Origin: Bifidobacterium sp.
GTDB lineage: Bacteria; Actinomycetota; Actinomycetes; Actinomycetales; Bifidobacteriaceae
DNA length: 64,000 nucleotides
Reading direction: 5' to 3'
NCBI GenBank assembly: GCA_022640915.1
Contig: JALCCT010000005.1
Coordinates: 62,001-126,000 of the forward strand
This document shows positions 39,350 to 54,627 of this stretch, piece by piece. Each line of letters opens with the position of its first letter. Position 1 is the stretch's first letter. The translations under genes and the position numbers were made by a program. Under the pieces are notes generated by a model. That model did no database searches. It worked only from the letters and a program-made list of their open reading frames with translations, and was not told the origin of the DNA.

Positions 39350-40438
39350 TCAGCATCCGCAACTTCCCCGCACGATCATCCGCACTGGAAACACGAAATC
39401 CACCGGATTCTCCCACGGACGACCGGACCGTTCATCAAGCAGTCGAGCCGCCAGTCGCCCCATAGATTCCATCGGTTGGCGAACCGTCGTCAACCCGGGA
39501 GACAACATGCCTCCGGCAAGAACACCGTCAAATCCTGTCACGACAATGTCTTGCGGTACATTCAGGCCAGCGTCATGAAGCACCTGAATGACATCGAGCG
39601 CCGTCTGATCGTTCGTGCACACCAATGCCTGAGGTAGCTGCTCCTCGTCAATCGCTCTGCATAATGCCACAAAATGCTCTTCTGAGATCGCGTCACTCTC
39701 GTCCAAAGGCCTATCCGGCGCAGGCAGACCTCGGGCCTTCAGCCGATTGCGCATTGCAGCGAACCGGGATCTCATGTCATAATTGTCGTTTTTCCCTATA
39801 AATGCGATGTTCCGCAGCCCATGCACATCAACGAGATGATCGATCAGCTGATTCATGCCAGCGACATTGTCACATGCAACATAGGCCGCTGGGTCGGCAG
39901 ACAGGCCTTCGCTCAGCCGCACAATCGGAATGCTGCGGCATAACGACGACAGTGAAGGATCGTCGGCGAACTGGCCCGGAAACACTGCAAGGCCATCCAC
40001 CCTGCCCGCGATATCCGCGATGCCGACTCCGTCATTTGCGACAGAAGCCGAACCTAGCAGCACATTGCGCCCACGATGCCAGCATTCAAGTTCGAAACCG
40101 CGTTGTACCTCGTCCACATATAACGGATAAGCCAAAATATCCGGCCCCTCAAGATTCTCCTCATCGGCTGGATCCGAGTCCGAAACGACTGTCTCGTCTT
40201 CATCGCCTAGCGGCAGCTCAATAAGCATGTCAAATGAATACAGACCGAAAACGCCAGTACGCCCACGAGCCAAACCACGCGCATTGGCGCTGGGAACATA
40301 ATCGAGTTCCTTTGCCGCCCGTAGCACCTTTTCACGCGTTACCGATTTGACCTTATCGGAATGGTGGAAGGTAAACGAAACCGTGGCAGTGGACACCCCG
40401 GCCCGTTCCGCCACGTCGTAGACCGTCGCTCTTCGCAT
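39350..40438 (-). CDS. LacI family transcriptional regulator
   Basis: ATVYDVAERAGVSTATVSFTFHHSDKVKSVTREKVLRAAKELDYVPSANARGL. Confidence 0.94.
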   Translation of the reverse strand: MRRATVYDVAERAGVSTATVSFTFHHSDKVKSVTREKVLRAAKELDYVPSANARGLARGRTGVFGLYSFDMLIELPLGDEDETVVSDSDPADEENLEGPDILAYPLYVDEVQRGFELECWHRGRNVLLGSASVANDGVGIADIAGRVDGLAVFPGQFADDPSLSSLCRSIPIVRLSEGLSADPAAYVACDNVAGMNQLIDHLVDVHGLRNIAFIGKNDNYDMRSRFAAMRNRLKARGLPAPDRPLDESDAISEEHFVALCRAIDEEQLPQALVCTNDQTALDVIQVLHDAGLNVPQDIVVTGFDGVLAGGMLSPGLTTVRQPMESMGRLAARLLDERSGRPWENPVDFVFPVRMIVRGSCGC

Positions 40439-41675: not shown

Positions 41676-42116
41676 TCAGCCCTTGATTGCCTTCTTGCGG
41701 CCGCGCTGCTTCATGGTGCCAGATACGGCATTCGCCGCATTAAAGACGACGACTTTGCCACTCTCATCGAGCTCGCCCGCCGCCGTCTGGTAAAAGACCT
41801 CTCCTTCCGCGGCCTGCTTGAGCGTGAAGAACTTGCCGATTGTGTCGACAAGCGTCTCGTTGTTCACCGTCACCGACGAGGCCTGCTTGCCCTCAGGCTT
41901 GCTGAACTTCACAGCGTTGGCTTCGCGGCCCGTGCACGCCTGGAGTGCGACCTGCTTGTTTTTCTCGTTGATCAGCACTTTGACATACGCTGGGTAGCCG
42001 AGCGCACTCGCAGTCGCCTTGTTGAACCTGATCCTGGAAGCCATCACCGTCATAGTGAGATTGCCTGTAGGCTTCGTAATAGCCACTTCCTCAAATCCTT
42101 GAAGAGTCATGTTCAA
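41676..42116 (-). CDS. Hypothetical 146-aa protein with basic C-terminus
   Basis: Intact ORF MNMTLQGFEEVAITKPTGNLTMTVMASRIRFNK...; upstream AT-rich region; no family recognised. Confidence 0.65.
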   Translation of the reverse strand: MNMTLQGFEEVAITKPTGNLTMTVMASRIRFNKATASALGYPAYVKVLINEKNKQVALQACTGREANAVKFSKPEGKQASSVTVNNETLVDTIGKFFTLKQAAEGEVFYQTAAGELDESGKVVVFNAANAVSGTMKQRGRKKAIKG

Positions 42117-43670: not shown

Positions 43671-44795
43671 TCATGCGTTAGCAGCAACTCCGTGGATCAG
43701 ATAATCGCGGCATATCCTGACAATGCGCTCGGCGGCATGACCGTCGCCATAGGGGTTGTTCGCCGTCGCCATAGCACGGTATTTTTGGGGGTCATTCAGC
43801 AGCTCTACCATGGCCGCTTTCACGGCCGAGGTCTTGGTCCCCACCAGTTTCAAGGTACCTGCGGCAACGCCTTCGGGCCGTTCGGTCGAATCACGCAGCA
43901 CCAGCACCGGCTTATTCAGCGAAGGAGCCTCCTCCTGCACGCCGCCGGAATCCGTCATGATGAAGAAGCTACGCGCTGCAAGCCCTTGGAAATCAACGGC
44001 GTCCAGGGGATCAATGAGATGGATGCCCTCGACGCCATCGAAGATCTCATGGGCAATCGCCTGCACGCGCGGGCTGAGATGCACGGGATAGATGACGTCG
44101 AGTCCGGGCGTATTGAGAACGACCTCTTTGATCGCGGCAAATACGTCACGCATCGGCTGTCCCTGGTTCTCCCGGCGATGCATGGTGAGCAGAATGAACC
44201 GGTGGCCCTGCGCAATCGTTGCCAGAACATCATGATGGTAATCGGCTCGAACGGTGGTGCGCAACGCGTCGATCGCCGTGTTCCCCGTGATGAAGACCCG
44301 GGATTCAGGATGATGCTCCTTGAGCAGATTGTTCTTGCTGAGTTGGGTTGGCGCGAAATACAAGTCTGCTATGTCATCCGTCATCATGCGGTTCATTTCC
44401 TCGGGATACGGTGAATGCGTGTCCCAGGTTCGAAGTCCCGCTTCGACGTGGCCCACGGGTATGCGATGGTAGAAGGCGCTGAGAGCCGCCGCCATTGTGG
44501 TGGTGGTATCGCCATGGACCAATACCAGATCGGGGCGTTCCTCAGTCAGAATCTCATCGAGACCGAGGATGACTCTGCTCGTGATTTCGGAAAGAGTCTG
44601 TTGCTTTCCCATGATCTTGAGGTCATAATCAGGATGAATGTCGAAGATATCCAACACCTGCTGCAGCATTGTACGATGTTGCCCGGTCACCACAATAACG
44701 GGAACCATACTTGGATCAGCCGCGATCTGCTTGATGACCGGAGCCATTTTGATTGCTTCTGGTCTGGTGCCAAAGATGGTCATTATTCTCAACAT
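43671..44795 (-). CDS. wecB: UDP-N-acetylglucosamine 2-epimerase (non-hydrolysing)
   Basis: FGTRPEAIKMAPVI, VTGQHRTML, VHGDTTTTMAAALSAFYHRIPVGHVEAGLRT, DSGGVQEEAPSL. Confidence 0.94.
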   Translation of the reverse strand: MLRIMTIFGTRPEAIKMAPVIKQIAADPSMVPVIVVTGQHRTMLQQVLDIFDIHPDYDLKIMGKQQTLSEITSRVILGLDEILTEERPDLVLVHGDTTTTMAAALSAFYHRIPVGHVEAGLRTWDTHSPYPEEMNRMMTDDIADLYFAPTQLSKNNLLKEHHPESRVFITGNTAIDALRTTVRADYHHDVLATIAQGHRFILLTMHRRENQGQPMRDVFAAIKEVVLNTPGLDVIYPVHLSPRVQAIAHEIFDGVEGIHLIDPLDAVDFQGLAARSFFIMTDSGGVQEEAPSLNKPVLVLRDSTERPEGVAAGTLKLVGTKTSAVKAAMVELLNDPQKYRAMATANNPYGDGHAAERIVRICRDYLIHGVAANA

Positions 44796-45935
44796 TTAAT
44801 GTATTCCCTCCATCGCCGCCATGGTGGTTAATGTGGCATCGTAATAACCGGTCGCACGCGGTGATTGCATAAGAATTCGCTGTTTGTTCGCCAGAATGCG
44901 GCCATAACTCCCTCGCTGGCCTCTACTCGCCGCATATACCAACGGGGCTAGGAAACTGTTCGACTGATAGGAGTTGAGGCGCCGACCGGCAAGTGAGTAG
45001 CCGGCGGTGATGACGTCCTGACGCTCGAAGAAACGCAAGAGTCTGCGTGACACCCGTTCCGCTCGTGGATCGCCACTCGACGCCAGCACCATAGGCACCC
45101 GACAAGCATTGGACGAATAATCGCCGTCGTATTGCGATGCCACCGTCTTGCCCTGCACCGCACGCGCATGCCCCTCAGCCAGCCAGGCGAAATCAGGAAC
45201 CAGCCCCGTGTCGTGCTCATTGCTCAGCTCTACCATACGGTTCAGCATCACGTTCTTTACGGTCAACCAACGCCCATCACGAGTAAAGTCATAAAACGCA
45301 TCGAAGAACGCCGGGATGACGTCAGAGGTACGCATCAGAGTATGGAATGGCGAGCCCTCGTTGGCCCAATCGCCGACGGTCAGCGCCTGGGTCGCATCGT
45401 TGTATTCATATCTCAGGATGTCGGCTGTCAAGCGCCGTTCAATCGTGCCGTAGTACGACGAGCGTTGCGGCCAGACCTTGGCGGCCTGATGAAGTCCGAA
45501 CGCGATATAGAGGTCACCGTCGGTCGCGCTATTGTCTTCGCTGACCCATCGCTGCCCACTCCTGTATTGGCGCCATCGCATCAGATATGTCGGAACATCA
45601 CGCCGATCTCCAACAGCGTCGCGATGCGCGAGATAATAGTTCAGCAGACCATCGAAGTCCTTCTGCTGCGCCCAATCATGAGACCCCGCCAGCGCGGTGA
45701 TATAGAGCCCATATCCTTGACCTTCCGAAAGCGCCACCGGATTGGTTTTATCCACACTTGTATTGACGAAGGCGCGCTGCTTATTCTCCCACACCACATA
45801 GTTCTCCCGCCATTGCCTATACTGTGTGCGCTGGGCACTGGGAAGACTACTGGCACGCACGAACCACATCACGACGACATAAACGACCACCACCAGCACC
45901 GCAATTGCCCAGCGGAATTTGACGCGTTTCACCAC
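44796..45935 (-). CDS. GH8-like secreted/membrane-anchored glycoside hydrolase
   Basis: N-terminal TM; LSEGQGYGLYITAL, SATDGDLYIAFGL and NEGSPFH resemble GH8 endoglucanases (BcsZ type). Confidence 0.8.
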   Translation of the reverse strand: MVKRVKFRWAIAVLVVVVYVVVMWFVRASSLPSAQRTQYRQWRENYVVWENKQRAFVNTSVDKTNPVALSEGQGYGLYITALAGSHDWAQQKDFDGLLNYYLAHRDAVGDRRDVPTYLMRWRQYRSGQRWVSEDNSATDGDLYIAFGLHQAAKVWPQRSSYYGTIERRLTADILRYEYNDATQALTVGDWANEGSPFHTLMRTSDVIPAFFDAFYDFTRDGRWLTVKNVMLNRMVELSNEHDTGLVPDFAWLAEGHARAVQGKTVASQYDGDYSSNACRVPMVLASSGDPRAERVSRRLLRFFERQDVITAGYSLAGRRLNSYQSNSFLAPLVYAASRGQRGSYGRILANKQRILMQSPRATGYYDATLTTMAAMEGIH

Positions 45936-45946
45936 TCGATCCCCCT

Positions 45947-47266
45947 TCAGTTATCGAACCGTTTGGTCTTCACCCAGACGCTCCCGTTTCGATGCAGCAC
46001 CGCGTCGAGGAATACGGAAGCTACCGCATGAATGGAGACAAGAATGAAAAGCTGCGAATAGGTGAAATATGAGGCCAAACCTATCCAGATCTGTTCAGTG
46101 GTGGCCTGCCCGAACTGCGTGGACATCGCAAAGAAAATCTGCAACACATATAGGATGATCATTAGCATCCAGTTCAATAGCAGAATCTGCATGATCGAAC
46201 TATTACCATCGCCAAAGGTGAAGGGGATGGACAGATTGTGGTCGAACAGCCTCGCAATCAGCACGCAGATATTTGTAAGAAAGATGATGTTTGATAGGAT
46301 GATGGCCGCATCGAACCAGAAAAACGTGGCTGAGTAGTACAGCACTTCAAGTTTGACCCGCCAATTGCTGGGCCTAAATAGCAGCCTGGCATTGTGGATG
46401 ACCACCTGATAGTTTCCCTTGGCCCACCGCAGCCGCTGAAAGTAGTAATCGCGGAGGCGCTCGGGCTCCTGTTGGAAGGCCTCGGAATTATAGGCCAGGG
46501 CGATGAGTTTCCCGCTTTGCATGATCTTAAAGGAGATGTCGGTGTCCTCCGTAAGTGCGCCGTTGCTCCAGCCGCCTATCGATTTCGCGAAGTCTGTATT
46601 GATGATGAAATTCGTGCCAGGTATACGTCCGATCTTGAACATATGCCAGATGGCGCAATGCTGAATCCGCTGGGTGACGACGATCTCCTGGTTGATGCAC
46701 CGGGTGAGGAAATTCTGCCTGGCGTTTCGGGTCTTGTTCCTGCCGAATACCGCCATATACTTGAAAGGATTCGCAATCGCCTCTCTGACCAAGAAATACA
46801 ACGCGTTTCTTTCCGGCATCGCGTCCGCGTCGTACACACCTAAGTAATCGCCGTGGGCGATGGCGAGCGCATCGTTCAGCACCCCCGCCTTGCCGCCGCT
46901 TCCAGTTCTTTCGATGAGGCGCACATTCCGGTCGCGGTATTGTGGCAGCTCGGCGACGCTGCGCATCTCCCGAGCCGTATGGTCATTGCAGTTGTCGGCG
47001 AACAGCAATATCTCGACCCGATCCGCAGGGTAATGAAGATTCATAATAGCCCGCACCGTCTGGGCGATCACAATTTCCTCATTGTGCGCTGGCACGACAA
47101 TGGTTACCGTCGGATATGAGGGCAACGGCGTGATATGCACGAGTTTCTGGCTGCGTCGCAGCCAGAAATGGATAGCACCGCCAAGCGTCGTCAACGACAC
47201 CAGCAGCGATAGCCAAATTAGGACCAACGTGACGATCATCGTAATCTCTGCAGCCACTATTCCCAT
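45947..47266 (-). CDS. Processive membrane GT2 glycosyltransferase (BcsA/PgaC-like)
   Basis: TIVVPAHNEEIVIAQTV, YDADAMPERNAL, TEDTDISFKI, QRLRWAKGN (QxxRW); C-terminal TM helices; no PilZ-like tail. Confidence 0.9.
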   Translation of the reverse strand: MGIVAAEITMIVTLVLIWLSLLVSLTTLGGAIHFWLRRSQKLVHITPLPSYPTVTIVVPAHNEEIVIAQTVRAIMNLHYPADRVEILLFADNCNDHTAREMRSVAELPQYRDRNVRLIERTGSGGKAGVLNDALAIAHGDYLGVYDADAMPERNALYFLVREAIANPFKYMAVFGRNKTRNARQNFLTRCINQEIVVTQRIQHCAIWHMFKIGRIPGTNFIINTDFAKSIGGWSNGALTEDTDISFKIMQSGKLIALAYNSEAFQQEPERLRDYYFQRLRWAKGNYQVVIHNARLLFRPSNWRVKLEVLYYSATFFWFDAAIILSNIIFLTNICVLIARLFDHNLSIPFTFGDGNSSIMQILLLNWMLMIILYVLQIFFAMSTQFGQATTEQIWIGLASYFTYSQLFILVSIHAVASVFLDAVLHRNGSVWVKTKRFDN

Positions 47267-47442
47267 GCCTCCTCGTCATCGGCCGCGTAGCCCTCATCGA
47301 TTCTCTTCTGCTCTAAGGTTGTCCGTTCCACGCGAAAGTACGTTATCCACAGGCATACGAAGACCACGACGACGGCAACGGCAAAAAACACCGTGATAAC
47401 GACCGACACCCACCAAAACACAGTAATCACGGAATCTGTCAC
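47257..47442 (-). CDS. Small (61 aa) single-pass membrane protein of the exopolysaccharide cluster
   Basis: Hydrophobic VFWWVSVVITVFFAVAVVVVFVCLWITYF then acidic tail; GTG start overlaps the upstream stop (gtga) and its end overlaps the GT2 start. Confidence 0.7.
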   Translation of the reverse strand: MTDSVITVFWWVSVVITVFFAVAVVVVFVCLWITYFRVERTTLEQKRIDEGYAADDEEAWE

Positions 47443-48347
47443 CCCTTCAGGTATTCCACCACGAGATCGGTCTCCATCTCACGCTGCAGACGACGGGTAG
47501 CGTCCTTCAAAGTCGGGAAATCGTTGACATTGGAGTGATCAATCCTCAGGCTCCCCCATTTGAATTGAGGGGTCGTCCCCAACAGAACGCTCCCATTCAG
47601 ATGCTTCCTCGTCATGACGTTGCGCGCCTCGTACGTTTCCTCTGGCACCAGATGCGAGATAATGAGGAACGTGCCGTCATCAAGGTAATACAAGGATTCG
47701 GAAGGCAGACGGTCATCCTTGAGCACCTGAGCGATGTCATGCAGCTCCTGACTGTACTCATTTTCATGGAATTGCCTGAACTGCGCGCTGTTAGCCCAGT
47801 GAATGGCGGCTACATTGCACCACAGCGCACCATCCAGATCATTGCGGATGAATCTGATGACCTTTTCATACATCTTCTCCGCATTGTAGAGCTTCTGGAA
47901 CTTCGTCACCGGATCGTAGTGACGGCTATAGCGTTCGATATCGCGTCTATTGAATCTGGCCCAGCCGAATCTGATCAGCACATAGCGATCAATCGACATC
48001 AGACCGGCGCTTGCAGGGGCAACGGCGAGCAGAATGAGCTTCGACGAAAACGGCATCGGGACATCACCCAACACCAGTATGGCGGCGCCTAACGCTGTAA
48101 GCAGGATGAGAATCCACGAGGTGAGCACGCTGGGAAGCATGGCGGCCAGAGCCAAACCGATGAAAAGCAGAACTATTGCCGGGTTCGAGATTCCTGGCGC
48201 ATACATATTAATGCAATACCCGACGATTGCGATGGCTAAAAACGTGCCAAGCAGAGTCAAGAGACCCGAAATAATGACGTGGCGGTTGCCCAACAACATT
48301 TCCTTTCGCGCATGGAGTTTTACATCCGAACACATGGTGATGCCCAA
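47439..48347 (-). CDS. Multi-TM protein with degenerate GGDEF-like C-terminal domain
   Basis: About 4 TM helices, then YDPVTKFQKLYNAEKMYEKV (DxLTxLxN-like) and SESLYYLDDGTFLIIS at the GGDEF position. Confidence 0.6.
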   Translation of the reverse strand: MGITMCSDVKLHARKEMLLGNRHVIISGLLTLLGTFLAIAIVGYCINMYAPGISNPAIVLLFIGLALAAMLPSVLTSWILILLTALGAAILVLGDVPMPFSSKLILLAVAPASAGLMSIDRYVLIRFGWARFNRRDIERYSRHYDPVTKFQKLYNAEKMYEKVIRFIRNDLDGALWCNVAAIHWANSAQFRQFHENEYSQELHDIAQVLKDDRLPSESLYYLDDGTFLIISHLVPEETYEARNVMTRKHLNGSVLLGTTPQFKWGSLRIDHSNVNDFPTLKDATRRLQREMETDLVVEYLKG

Positions 48348-48847: not shown

Positions 48848-51800
48848 TCAGACCTTGCGCTTGCGCCAGACCTCTATGCCAATGCCGGTGGCGGCGAGCG
48901 CGACCGCAACAGTGCCGAGGCTGAGCACAGCGGCGCCAGTGTTCGACAGAACCGTGCCGGCTGTGTCGCCAGAACCAGGCTTATTTTGATCGACATGCGT
49001 CTGCTCGGCCTGCTCAGACTGCTCAGGCTGCTCAATCTGCCGCTCTTCAAGATTGCTGACGGCCTCGTTGAGCTTTGCGGCGGCGGCATCGACCTGGTCT
49101 TGTGTGACGCCGGCGTCGTTGCAAACACCCTGTGCCTCGGCGAGCACGGACTGCAGCCTGGTCACGGATTCCTCGGTGTACTTCGACGCCTCATTGAGCC
49201 TGTCTTTGGCCATGTTGATCGCCTGTTTCAGCCCGTTCTTCTTCACGGTCGGCTTCGGTTTCTCCTTGGCCGTCACCGTAATCTTGCGCGTGGCCTTGGC
49301 TATGTTGCCGGCTTTGTCGGCAACCGTGTAGGTCAAGGTGTAGTCACCGGGAGTCGAAGTGTCAACCGTGCCGGAGGCCTTGATGGAGCTGGTTACATCG
49401 CCGTCCACATCGTCTATGGCACTCACGCCGGCAAGCAGAGCGAACGTGGTGTTCTGCCCAATCGCCATGTCGTCCACGCCGGAGAACACCGGTGCGGTCT
49501 TATCCTCGGCGGGCGGCACCACCGGGCGCTCTTTGAGCCTTGAGATGGCGTTATCGAGCTGAGCAGAGGCCACGTCGATAGACGCCTGGGAAGCATCACC
49601 AGTGGCGTCCTTGTACTTACACACACGCTTGGCATGATTCAGCGCAGTTGTCACGTTCGCAAAGGTTTCGGCAGTGTACTGGGAGTAGTCCAATGCCTCG
49701 CCCTCAGCGATAGCCGCATTGAGCTCTGTCTTGCTGACCGAATGGCGTACATATTGAGCGGATTCACTGGGAGCACCGGATGGCAGTAGTGTGAAGTTGT
49801 CGAGTGACCCCCAGTCGCCGCCCTTGGTCGAGTTGATCTCGAATCCGATGACGGCGGAGCCGGAGTCGTCAGTAGTGAACTCCAATGCGGTCCTAGCGAG
49901 CTTCTGCCAACCGCTGGCGGGAATCGCGGCCGAGGCCGTGTTCTCGCCGACTTTAGCAGTCAGCTGGTAGATAGTGCCGGCTGCGGTCTGCGCGTAGGAG
50001 TCGACAGTCAGCGTGTACCCGGTGTTCGCTTTAAGCCCAGTGACGGTTTGTTTGGCGGAACCGGCGAACGCTCCTTTGTTCCAGAAGTTGATGGACTTCG
50101 TATCGGCGGGCAGCGCGTTATTGGTCTTGTCGACCCACACCCCGGCGATTTTGCCGTCGTCGCCCTTCGTTACGGAGGTCTCGACCTTCCATGCGGTGTG
50201 ATCACCCTCGAAATCGCCGTCTGCGAGCGCATTGGTGACGGCTTCGTCGGCAGCGGTGGCACCTGTCTTCAAATACTTGTAGGTGTCGAGTGAGGCAAGC
50301 GCATAGCCGTCCTTGTCGAACAAGGCTTGGTTGTCCACGCCGGAGCCGCCCCAACCGTTGTTGGCCGCGCCCGAGTCGTATTCCTCGGCGTACTTGGTGG
50401 CCCAGCCGGCGCCAGTGGTATTCCACACGTAATCGTTGCCGCTCTCGTGCCGACCGTCAGGGGTGACGGGAAGCCACGAGTTCTCCCACCAGAACATGCC
50501 AAGGCCGGCATTGCCGTCGACGGTGTTGACGGCGTTGGCGACGTCGCGAATAGCATCGGCCTGGCCCTGCACACTCACGTCGTACTTGCAGGTCACACCG
50601 TTGCAGCTGGTAACCATGTTCGCACCGTCCGGGTCATCGAAGGTGTAGGCCCACGAAGTCTCCGCCACCATGACTTTCTTATGGTAGGTGTTGGCTACGT
50701 AGTTGAGCTTCTCGATGAGATTATCAGTGGTGCCATGCCAGAATGGATAGTACGAGGAAGCGAACACGTCGTAATCTACGTTGTTCTTAGCGAGTCTGTC
50801 AGCGAACCCGGTGAAGTTTCCCTTCTCAGGATTCGCGTAATGCATGGCCACCAACGCATTGGGCAAGACGTCGCGCACCGCTGCAGATCCGGCTTTGAGC
50901 AGCGTGAAGTAGTTCGCGGATCCCGCCTTCTCGCCGGCAGTGCCACCGTTGATCTCGTTGCCGACTTGGACCATGCCGACGTTCACACCAGCGTTCTTGA
51001 ATGAGGTCAGCGCGTCCTTAGTATAGTCGGACAAGGCGGTGGCCTTCTCATCGACGGTCATCCTCGCCCAATCCTTCGGCACCTTGTACTTGCCAGGATC
51101 GGCCCAGAAGTCAGAGTAGTGGAAGTCGACAAGCACCTTCATGCCTACAGCAGTAGCACGTTTGCCGATCTCGACAGCAGTGGCGGCGTCCGTGTTGCCG
51201 GCACCATACGGCTGACCGGATTCGGTATAGGGCTTGTTCCATACCCGCACCCGCACCCAGTTGGTGCCGGCATCATGGGCAATCTTAAACACATCGCCCA
51301 CGTTGCCGTCCGCGTCCTTAAACTTGACCCCAGCCTTTTCCAGCGCCAGTGCGCTCGACATATCGGCGCCACGAATAAAATTGTCGGAGATGCCGTCGAT
51401 TTTCTTGACGTTTACGCCTCCCTTAACAGGTGTGTTCGGGTCAGTGGGTGTTACATCACCGGTACGAACAAGCGTGATGTCATCAACGTTAAGCCACTGC
51501 TTGCCAGGTACGCCGTTGGCATTCAAAGAGACTGTTGCCCTGCCGCCGGTAATCTGAATGCCTTCGAGCTTGAGGGTGCCGAATGTCGTCCCGTTATAAC
51601 CTTCCGTCTTGGTCACATCGACCGCAGACTTGGCCGCGCCAGATACAACGGTGAGGTCTGCCTTGCCGGGTTCGACGTTGCCCCGCAGGTCCGCAGTCAA
51701 CGCGTAGGTGCCGTCTGGTAGCGTAGCGCTGCCATTCTTCCCAGCCTCGATGTTCTGCGAGAAGCTGCCGGTGTAGTCGGTACCCTTGTAGACGTTGAGG

Positions 51801-53212
51801 AAATAGTTGCCCACTCGTCCGGCGTTGTCTGAGGCGTTGGAGAAGCTATCGGCATCCGTGCCAGAGGCGGTCCACCCCACTACGTTGGATCCGACCTTGA
51901 CCCGGTCGGCCTCGAAGGAACCATTGAGCACGAAATTGTTGTCATCAGCCACGGACCAAGTGGCATTCTTCTCGTCAAGATTCCATCTGCTCAGCGAGTT
52001 GAAGTACGGTCGTCCGTTCTCGCCAAAACTGATCGGCGTCCACTGGTTGTAACCCGCTCCGTTGCCCGCAAAGTTGGACCAACGATCACCGCAGTAGAGC
52101 ACATAGCTGTCTTTTTTATCCGCATTCTTAACGGTGTAATAGAAGCCAGTCTGTGTAACGTGACTGTAGTCGGCCGTGGAACCGTCCATGTAAGAGAACT
52201 TGTTCTCTTGGCCATCCGCGTTCTTATATGGTCCCCAAATGTCATCGGCGACGAGGTACTGAACCGACGACGCGTTCCAGCCATGCAGGGCGGACCCGGT
52301 GTAGTAGTACTTGCCATTGTATTTGAACATAGCATCGCCTTCCATACCTGCGCCTTTGTAGATCTGCTTGTATGTGACGACGTCGACCTGGCCTTGATTA
52401 TTGAAACCGATCTCCCCCACGTATAGATATGCGCGGCCGCTACCATTCGAGTAGATGAGATAGGATTTGCCGGTGTCCTGGTCAGTGAACACGGTTTGGT
52501 CACCGGTGTTGTCCTGCGGGTTTCCCCAGTTCTTCGAGCTCACTCGGCGTTCGATGGCGAACGGCCCAGCAGGTGAGTCCGATGTGGCAATGGCGACTTT
52601 CTTGTCCCAATCAGCTTTCCCGGGATTCTTTGTGGTGGGCACTTCATGCTGGATGAACATGGCGTATACGTCCTTGCCATCCTTATTGGTCAGATGCGCC
52701 ACACCCAGCCGAGACACCCACCCTGCCTGCTGCCAGTCACCCAGCTTGTCGGGAAAGGCGTTGGCGGCATCCTTGGTGAACACCGCACCCTCCTTTTTCC
52801 AGTTGACCAAGTCTGAGGAGCTATAGGCATCGACGGATTCAAATGAAAGACTGGCATCGCGCCCATCCGTGGTTTTGATAACGTCGGTCGGATTTGACGC
52901 ATACTGTTCAGCGGCCTTGAAGTGCACACCATACCAGTAGTGTTTCGTCTGCCCAGTCACAGTATCCTTGAAATCATAGATCCCGCCGCCTTGCGAGTAG
53001 ATATAATCACCGTTGACATCTCTGGTGAACTGGTTGTTGGTGATCGTGGTATTCGATGCATTGAGCAGTGTCGACGTGTTCGTTAACGTCTGCGCCGTCT
53101 CTTGGGCGTATACGTTCGAAACCAGCGAAAGCATTGTAGCGCAGGTAACGATGACAGCGATCACAAGGCTCACCCATCTAACCCATCGTGACGAAATCCC
53201 ATCAACTTCCAT
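48848..53212 (-). CDS. galA: Cell-wall-anchored bimodular galactanase: GH43-like + GH53 endo-beta-1,4-galactanase, CBM-like, FIVAR, Ig-like and LSNTG-type sorting signal
   Basis: Signal peptide; GH43-like propeller (GGGIYDFKDTVTGQTKHYWYG, EGDAMFKYNGKYYYTGSALHGW); GH53 (NFIRGADMSSALALEKAGVKFKDADG, VGNEINGG, VMVAETSWAYTF); two FIVAR-like repeats; LSNTGAAVLSLGTVAVALAATGIGIEVWRKRKV C-terminus. Confidence 0.9.
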   Translation of the reverse strand: MEVDGISSRWVRWVSLVIAVIVTCATMLSLVSNVYAQETAQTLTNTSTLLNASNTTITNNQFTRDVNGDYIYSQGGGIYDFKDTVTGQTKHYWYGVHFKAAEQYASNPTDVIKTTDGRDASLSFESVDAYSSSDLVNWKKEGAVFTKDAANAFPDKLGDWQQAGWVSRLGVAHLTNKDGKDVYAMFIQHEVPTTKNPGKADWDKKVAIATSDSPAGPFAIERRVSSKNWGNPQDNTGDQTVFTDQDTGKSYLIYSNGSGRAYLYVGEIGFNNQGQVDVVTYKQIYKGAGMEGDAMFKYNGKYYYTGSALHGWNASSVQYLVADDIWGPYKNADGQENKFSYMDGSTADYSHVTQTGFYYTVKNADKKDSYVLYCGDRWSNFAGNGAGYNQWTPISFGENGRPYFNSLSRWNLDEKNATWSVADDNNFVLNGSFEADRVKVGSNVVGWTASGTDADSFSNASDNAGRVGNYFLNVYKGTDYTGSFSQNIEAGKNGSATLPDGTYALTADLRGNVEPGKADLTVVSGAAKSAVDVTKTEGYNGTTFGTLKLEGIQITGGRATVSLNANGVPGKQWLNVDDITLVRTGDVTPTDPNTPVKGGVNVKKIDGISDNFIRGADMSSALALEKAGVKFKDADGNVGDVFKIAHDAGTNWVRVRVWNKPYTESGQPYGAGNTDAATAVEIGKRATAVGMKVLVDFHYSDFWADPGKYKVPKDWARMTVDEKATALSDYTKDALTSFKNAGVNVGMVQVGNEINGGTAGEKAGSANYFTLLKAGSAAVRDVLPNALVAMHYANPEKGNFTGFADRLAKNNVDYDVFASSYYPFWHGTTDNLIEKLNYVANTYHKKVMVAETSWAYTFDDPDGANMVTSCNGVTCKYDVSVQGQADAIRDVANAVNTVDGNAGLGMFWWENSWLPVTPDGRHESGNDYVWNTTGAGWATKYAEEYDSGAANNGWGGSGVDNQALFDKDGYALASLDTYKYLKTGATAADEAVTNALADGDFEGDHTAWKVETSVTKGDDGKIAGVWVDKTNNALPADTKSINFWNKGAFAGSAKQTVTGLKANTGYTLTVDSYAQTAAGTIYQLTAKVGENTASAAIPASGWQKLARTALEFTTDDSGSAVIGFEINSTKGGDWGSLDNFTLLPSGAPSESAQYVRHSVSKTELNAAIAEGEALDYSQYTAETFANVTTALNHAKRVCKYKDATGDASQASIDVASAQLDNAISRLKERPVVPPAEDKTAPVFSGVDDMAIGQNTTFALLAGVSAIDDVDGDVTSSIKASGTVDTSTPGDYTLTYTVADKAGNIAKATRKITVTAKEKPKPTVKKNGLKQAINMAKDRLNEASKYTEESVTRLQSVLAEAQGVCNDAGVTQDQVDAAAAKLNEAVSNLEERQIEQPEQSEQAEQTHVDQNKPGSGDTAGTVLSNTGAAVLSLGTVAVALAATGIGIEVWRKRKV

Positions 53213-53502: not shown

Positions 53503-54627
53503 TTATGCCCGTGTACTGCCCCGCGGGACGACGAACGAATCGGTCATCAGTAGCTCAGGGTTGACAATGTCTCCGCGAATGCGTCCGAGAATCCGGTCAA
53601 CGGCGGTCGGCGCCGTCCAATCGAGTCGGGAATCCATGGAAGTCAGCGGAATCTGCAAATACGCCGATTCCTCAATATTGTCAAACCCAATGACCTGCAC
53701 CTGACCAGGAGCATTCACACCATTGGCGCTGAGCACCGACAGCACGCCTATCGCCAGCTGATCGTTCAGCGCCACAACACCGTCGAGCCCGATTCCCGAA
53801 TCAAGAATTCTCTGTGCCGCGCGCGCTCCGGCCCCAATCGTCCAGTCCTTGCCGGTATTTCCCACAAGCCGCGGGTCAAGGCGCTTTCTTCGTCGCAGGC
53901 ATTCTTCGATGATGCCACGCAGTCTGAGTTCCGCATTGCCCTCGGTCGCCTGCAACAGCTTGTTCTCATCCAGATCTTCTCGCGCACCCACCACGGCAAG
54001 GCTACACGATCCACGATCGAACAAATATCCGGTGGCCGCAGCGCCGGCCTGCACGTCATTGGGGGTGACATGGTCCGCCTTGCCCCACGTGGATCGGGCT
54101 CCCACTACCACCAATGGAAAATCGACTTCAAGATCATCTGCAGTGATATTCACGACTTCGCTCATTGAGAGAATCATGCCGTCGGCCACCGTAGAATTAT
54201 ACGAGTGCAGGATATCCTTAGCGCCTTTCGCCGACCCCTCTGCATAGGTCGTGACATAGACCGAATAACCGCGTTCCCTAGCAGCATCTATAGTCCGATT
54301 GGCAAGTTCCGCCAAATACGGTGGCGTCAATGACGGTACTGCCAGCATCAGCACCCCGGTTCTGTCTCGGTTGAGATTGCGCGCCGAGATATTGACCCGA
54401 TATCCTGTCTGTTTGATGACCGCCTCGACCTTGTTTCGCGTGCTTTGGGTCATACGGCCAGTGCCATTGATGACATTCGATGCGGTCTTTAACGAGACAC
54501 CAGCCAATCTGGCCACATCGCGTAGCGTGGATCGTCGTCGGGAGACCGATGTTGCACTCGATTCGCGAGCAAGCGTCGAAATCGTGGAATCCGATGCAGA
54601 ACCCCCGCCAGACTCATGTTGCCCCAT
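53503..54627 (-). CDS. galR: LacI family regulator of galactan locus
   Basis: STLRDVARLAGVSLKTASNVINGTGRMTQSTRNKVEAVIKQTGYRVN; position within locus. Confidence 0.9.
   Translation of the reverse strand: MGQHESGGGSASDSTISTLARESSATSVSRRRSTLRDVARLAGVSLKTASNVINGTGRMTQSTRNKVEAVIKQTGYRVNISARNLNRDRTGVLMLAVPSLTPPYLAELANRTIDAARERGYSVYVTTYAEGSAKGAKDILHSYNSTVADGMILSMSEVVNITADDLEVDFPLVVVGARSTWGKADHVTPNDVQAGAAATGYLFDRGSCSLAVVGAREDLDENKLLQATEGNAELRLRGIIEECLRRRKRLDPRLVGNTGKDWTIGAGARAAQRILDSGIGLDGVVALNDQLAIGVLSVLSANGVNAPGQVQVIGFDNIEESAYLQIPLTSMDSRLDWTAPTAVDRILGRIRGDIVNPELLMTDSFVVPRGSTRA

Follow-up and report, generated by a model that had tools for sequence, protein, structure and literature searches.

A predicted exopolysaccharide synthase module with a degenerate GGDEF-fold protein in Bifidobacteriaceae and Lactobacillales

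In the nearest characterised relatives of the locus described here, PssA-E of Listeria monocytogenes (PssE, PMC4125290) and YdaJ-N of Bacillus subtilis (YdaK, PMC5422440), a degenerate GGDEF subunit is gated by c-di-GMP via an RxxD motif. A 64,000-nucleotide stretch of Bifidobacteriaceae DNA (the window) encodes a comparable subunit without this motif beside a putative exopolysaccharide (EPS) synthase, which raises the question of what a former receptor could do there. Our explanation, which we hold to be reasonably probable, is that the locus encodes a compact EPS synthase system derived from Lactobacillaceae, in which the GGDEF-fold protein serves as a c-di-GMP-independent subunit. The host genome assembly comprises 1.76 Mb in 22 contigs and is 78% complete.

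Gene content of the cluster and its predicted polymer

Five frames follow one another on the minus strand, with overlaps or near-zero gaps at their junctions. In order, these encode (i) a GGDEF-like membrane protein (47439..48347) with an N-terminal helical membrane region (four helices in the AF2 model) and a C-terminal degenerate GGDEF domain; (ii) a small protein with a single transmembrane (TM) segment (47257..47442), 61 aa long from GTG at 47442 or 57 aa from GTG at 47430; (iii) a processive GT2 synthase (45947..47266) with DxD (DAD), TED, and QRLRW motifs and C-terminal TM helices; (iv) a GH8-type protein (44796..45935) with an N-terminal membrane anchor; and (v) a non-hydrolysing UDP-GlcNAc 2-epimerase, WecB/MnaA (43671..44795). 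The last three were identified by Pfam and NCBIfam matches (the epimerase by NCBIfam wecB). The small TM gene overlaps the GGDEF-like gene by 4 nt and the GT2 gene by 10 nt; an 11-nt gap separates the GT2 gene from the GH8-type gene, which the epimerase gene abuts. All five frames are intact. The longest GGDEF-like frame opens with TTG, in-frame ATG codons at positions 5 and 17 being other possible starts, and the GT2 start (ATG, 47266) is preceded by a GAGGAGG ribosome site. Genes, order, positions, and strand agree with those given in an earlier sequence-only reading of this DNA, and its claim of a synthase-dependent EPS cluster is supported. An Rfam scan of the window returned neither a riboswitch nor any other RNA, and promoter and terminator scans gave results at chance level only.

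The same reading had described the synthase as free of a PilZ-like tail, and Pfam indeed detected no PilZ domain on the GT2. A BcsB match was absent from the window's genome (78% complete) and from 52 of the 55 host genomes searched, including all six bifidobacterial ones; B. subtilis was positive in a control search. The absence had been put down to the monoderm envelope, which is too simple in view of this B. subtilis match, of the BcsB-like protein encoded in the pss locus of Listeria, also a monoderm, and of a Rummeliibacillus locus (L102) in which a BcsB gene adjoins the GT2 gene. Several known synthase types were rejected: cellulose synthase (Bcs) for want of PilZ on the GT2 and of BcsB, the PNAG synthase PgaC/IcaA by score (TIGR03937, 140.8 bits against a cut-off of 422.3), and Pel because it comprises different genes (PMC7112168). 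No PgaB/IcaB deacetylase was found among the scanned cluster genes.

The epimerase gives an indication of the product. Among 189 Bifidobacteriaceae genomes, WecB was detected in 11, namely in all six with the cluster and in five of the 183 without it (Fisher p = 8 × 10−9, a value that is only indicative, as the six bifidobacterial GT2s form one clade and the co-occurrences are not independent). The in-cluster epimerase is the single wecB copy detected in each of the six genomes, the window's included, and WecB was present in all 55 host genomes tested. UDP-ManNAc supply thus seems to be part of the gene kit. A similar co-occurrence pattern has been used to argue that NfrB of Escherichia coli, which depends on WecB, uses UDP-ManNAc; there, too, the synthase is coupled to the epimerase, whose gene lies beside that of the synthase in hosts lacking a second copy, but NfrB carries its own MshEN c-di-GMP domain and has no degenerate GGDEF subunit (PMC8669469). 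The Listeria Pss polymer is described, as cited in PMC5422440, as a ManNAc chain decorated with galactose. Given this chain and the WecB co-occurrence, our best guess is a ManNAc-containing polymer, although the window GT2 is only 33% identical to the PssC counterpart of Listeria innocua, which makes the transfer of substrate uncertain. The epimerase association likewise supports the HexNAc/ManNAc polymer that had been proposed from the sequence in place of cellulose.

The GH8-type protein scored 79.5 bits in Pfam (cut-off 24). Its general acid E71 is conserved in 69 of 71 sequences (the other two have gaps), as is D270 in 69 of 71. Asn276 occupies, in 70 of 71 sequences, the aligned position that we take to hold the usual catalytic base in other GH8s, which leaves its activity in doubt. 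The nearest solved relatives are named glucanase and chitosanase, and an amino-sugar substrate may be accommodated.

Distribution and apparent horizontal origin of the module

We compared 75 loci with related GT2 genes. A GGDEF-like gene was adjacent in 71 of 75, the small TM gene occupied the same place in 69 of 75, often unannotated, and a GH8 gene lay downstream in 67 of 75. The epimerase gene was found within 3 kb in 45 of 75, on the upstream side in streptococci and a number of enterococci and on the downstream side in certain lineages. Most exceptions were contig ends, broken copies, or Paenibacillus loci, in which a divergent GH8-type gene lies upstream. The small TM protein has one hydrophobic segment, and its 57-aa version fits the orthologs better. 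The hosts are mostly Lactobacillaceae, streptococci, and enterococci. A contig search with the GGDEF-like protein as query found no relatives, which were found with the GT2. A profile of the GGDEF-like protein and close GT2 matches picked exactly the same six of 189 Bifidobacteriaceae genomes and the same nine plasmids, on all of which the GGDEF-like gene is annotated as 'hypothetical protein'. Co-conservation of the cluster genes, on which the earlier proposal had been made to depend, was therefore borne out by both the 71 loci and the six genomes.

In the GT2 tree, the six bifidobacterial sequences were monophyletic inside Lactobacillaceae (next node out, 100/98), and the module would by this nesting have reached Bifidobacteriaceae apparently by horizontal transfer from that family. 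The surroundings of the cluster vary across most of the bifidobacterial genomes; accordingly, the module has moved or has been acquired repeatedly from related donors. It is also carried by mobilizable plasmids of L. sakei (pKCA54, L144) and L. plantarum (L145); on pKCA54 it is flanked by IS elements, and the small TM gene is missing from the gene tables of L144 and L145. Two of the six bifidobacterial copies of the GGDEF-like gene are broken: that of G170 (L148:10200-11062) has a frameshift separating the TM part from the domain, and that of G179 (L147:10456-11151) carries an early stop, close to the N-terminus. Taken together, sequence comparison identifies a real, conserved, and mobile putative EPS synthase module, related to PssA-E and YdaJ-N but lacking both BcsB and the c-di-GMP site. 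A search of open-licence literature, covered mostly through titles and abstracts, found no paper on this cluster in lactobacilli, streptococci, or bifidobacteria.

The GGDEF-like protein and c-di-GMP

Single-sequence scans of the GGDEF-like protein with Pfam, NCBIfam, and PADLOC yielded nothing useful and did not detect the GGDEF domain. A profile of 55 orthologs matched solved GGDEF structures (E = 2.7 × 10−7 to 1 × 10−3). As Paenibacillus sequences contributed to this profile, and one of them clears the Pfam GGDEF cut-off by itself, the comparison was repeated without Bacillales, enterococcal, and streptococcal rows; aligned to 24 GGDEF proteins with hhalign, the reduced profile gave E = 2.5 × 10−7, compared with 0.33 for a GT2 control. 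The AF2 model (mean pLDDT 90) had GGDEF proteins as its best Foldseek matches, with a TM score of 0.82 normalised to the crystal structure of a T. maritima GGDEF domain. Even a streptococcal ortholog without the first part of the domain and without the I-site Arg was modelled with a GGDEF fold. The degenerate GGDEF fold, which the sequence-only reading had named as the point where it could fail, thus withstood profile, hhalign, and structure comparison.

The degenerate active site that it had proposed was equally evident. Aligned to cyclases, the GGDEF motif reads DDGTF in the window protein, and metal and substrate residues are replaced (metal Asp by H183, N by R191, D by S199). No ortholog has an intact GG(D/E)EF. 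An active diguanylate cyclase was rejected on the loss of this motif and of the metal-binding Asp.

At the I-site, defined as RxxD five residues before the motif (R at −9, D at −6), the window protein reads RLPSE. RxxD was present in 7/7 Bacillales orthologs and in 0/67 others. A shifted RxPx(E/D), with R at −10, P at −8, and an acidic residue (E or D) at −6, occurred in 46 of these 67, and neither form in 21, mostly streptococci, whose orthologs lack the Arg (some rows in these counts are near copies, and Listeria PssE stands outside them). PssE itself has the RxxD I-site, by sequence and as reported (PMC4125290). In YdaK, alanine at R202 or D205 of RxxD abolishes EPS production, and the protein is inactive without its TM part (PMC5422440). 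The residues invariant among the orthologs are not those of the ligand site: they are R289, E292, E298, and Y299 in the C-terminal tail (LQREMETDLVVEY) and P111 in the membrane part. Such a pattern would be more in keeping with a docking surface than with a ligand pocket.

GGDEF and EAL matches were absent from five of the six cluster-bearing Bifidobacteriaceae genomes (G000, the window's, at 78% completeness, G136, G170, G171, and G179). The sixth, G160, has one GGDEF-EAL gene, and since this adjoins a separate GT2-PilZ synthase gene (L152:5568-12492), c-di-GMP probably serves that synthase. Across the family, GGDEF proteins occur in about 20 of the 189 genomes. Among 50 other hosts of the module, 34 showed no diguanylate cyclase and 16 had one on our reading of the matches, in which weak hits on the cluster's own protein and on proteins of ~650-680 aa, presumably GdpP-like, do not count; most Lactobacillales hosts lack GGDEF and EAL proteins alike. 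Hosts with a cyclase share the altered I-site motif with those lacking one, so that the change probably preceded, or was separate from, the loss of c-di-GMP. With RxxD lost and no cyclase in most hosts, five of the six bifidobacterial ones included, c-di-GMP gating of this synthase appears unlikely. The GGDEF-like protein had been proposed as an allosteric or scaffold subunit; an allosteric role exerted through c-di-GMP was not supported.

Several known systems share features with the module. With Listeria PssA-E it shares a GT2, a separate 4-TM degenerate GGDEF protein, and a link to a ManNAc polymer, but has no RxxD I-site, no BcsB-like gene, and no DUF2334 gene, contains a GH8-type gene and an epimerase gene within the cluster, and its hosts are usually without a cyclase. 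B. subtilis YdaJ-N likewise combines a degenerate 4-TM GGDEF protein with an adjacent GT2 synthase; YdaK, however, needs RxxD and the cyclase DgcK (PMC5422440), whereas RxxD is missing here, as is BcsB in 52 of 55 hosts. Clusters of Paenibacillus and Fontibacillus (L086-L091) also unite GH8-type, GGDEF, small TM, and GT2 genes (GT2 48-50% identical), but with the GH8-type gene upstream and RxxD kept; the one genome searched for cyclases has many of them (21 GGDEF matches). The gts operon of Lactobacillus acidophilus also combines a BcsA/PgaC-like GT2 with a small membrane protein and, as a separate polypeptide, a degenerate domain protein of the c-di-GMP type; its receptor, unlike the protein here, has a degenerate EAL domain and binds c-di-GMP (PMC6123363). 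Gram-positive Pel has a degenerate GGDEF subunit, PelD, with its c-di-GMP role lost in streptococci, but uses PelD, E, A, F, and G, and streptococcal PelD dropped the domain (PMC7112168), while the fold is kept in the module.

Proposed mechanism, alternatives, and genomic neighbourhood

In the mechanism that we propose, computed gene order, folds, motif loss, distribution, and tree topology are used to infer polymer identity, complex formation, and c-di-GMP independence. The epimerase would make UDP-ManNAc, and the GT2 would polymerise it, or a mixture including it, and pass the chain through a membrane channel of its own. Both the 4-TM GGDEF-fold protein and the small single-TM protein would be structural subunits of the synthase, and the GH8-type ectoenzyme may trim or release the polymer. 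The GGDEF-fold protein would descend from a c-di-GMP receptor of the PssE/YdaK kind that lost its catalytic site and its RxxD ligand site; because of these losses it would work without c-di-GMP in Lactobacillales and Bifidobacteriaceae, most probably as a subunit for docking or stability, held via its membrane part and conserved C-terminal tail. We read the locus as a stripped, mobile variant in which a former receptor has become a structural or otherwise-gated synthase subunit.

Some observations sit uneasily with this explanation. The shifted RxPx(E/D) is itself conserved, a hint that a ligand or structural role may have been retained; roughly one in three hosts outside the bifidobacteria has a cyclase; the incompleteness of the window's genome leaves its own lack of a cyclase not firm; and the two broken GGDEF-like genes imply that the protein may not be obligatory, or that those clusters are dead. 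The conserved motif would suit a GGDEF fold re-tooled to gate the synthase through a different ligand, such as a nucleotide other than c-di-GMP or a nucleotide sugar, and the fold was indeed kept under divergence; yet the motif is gone in streptococci while the module persists, and the strongest conservation lies in the tail, so that we regard a new ligand as unlikely. The corresponding evolutionary reading, with RxPxE as the new-ligand motif of a mobile ManNAc-polymer synthase in lactobacilli, enterococci, and bifidobacteria, and streptococci one step further without it, is as doubtful. The protein might instead still bind c-di-GMP, through the shifted motif or another surface, and gate the synthase as PssE and YdaK do, the messenger coming from undetected enzymes or being present only in some hosts. 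The architecture and gene setting shared with PssE/YdaK, the conserved Arg/acid pair, and the 16 cyclase-bearing hosts would all agree with this reading. We nonetheless consider it quite improbable, given the many hosts without GGDEF and EAL proteins, the streptococcal orthologs without the Arg, and a motif indifferent to the presence of a cyclase.

That the bifidobacterial cluster is a decaying or silent import without function is the least plausible reading and, in our view, very improbable. It would account for the broken genes in G170 and G179 and for the presence of the cluster in only 6 of 189 genomes, but the window retains five intact frames and the GT2 catalytic motifs, its GT2 shares 75-82% identity with its bifidobacterial counterparts, and the base composition of the cluster (54% GC) is not far from that of the window (58%). 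Should the proposed c-di-GMP-independent role hold, a second-messenger receptor would have been kept as a synthase part after the messenger was gone, and the orthologs would form a natural series for subunit function, from RxxD in Bacillales through the shifted motif in Lactobacillales to none in streptococci. The distribution also draws attention to a surface-polymer locus that has been overlooked in gut and food lactic acid bacteria and bifidobacteria and that is in some cases carried on plasmids.

Several neighbouring genes were noted in the window. Directly upstream of the cluster, 48848-53212 (minus strand) encodes a 1454-aa cell-surface protein with GH43, GH53, Ig-like, and FIVAR domains; two LacI regulators are encoded near it (39350-40438 and 53503-54627), and the region looks like a locus for the use of plant galactan or arabinan. 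About 250 bp downstream of the epimerase gene and on the same strand lies a gene for a dTDP-glucose 4,6-dehydratase (rmlB-like, TIGR01181; 42392-43423), which could be co-transcribed with the cluster; the cluster flanks in the other bifidobacterial genomes gave no match to it. One further protein, of 146 aa and with no Pfam match (41676-42116, minus strand), has a 76% identical counterpart at L146:11471-11908; it is encoded near the cluster in both of these same-genus genomes, but on opposite sides.
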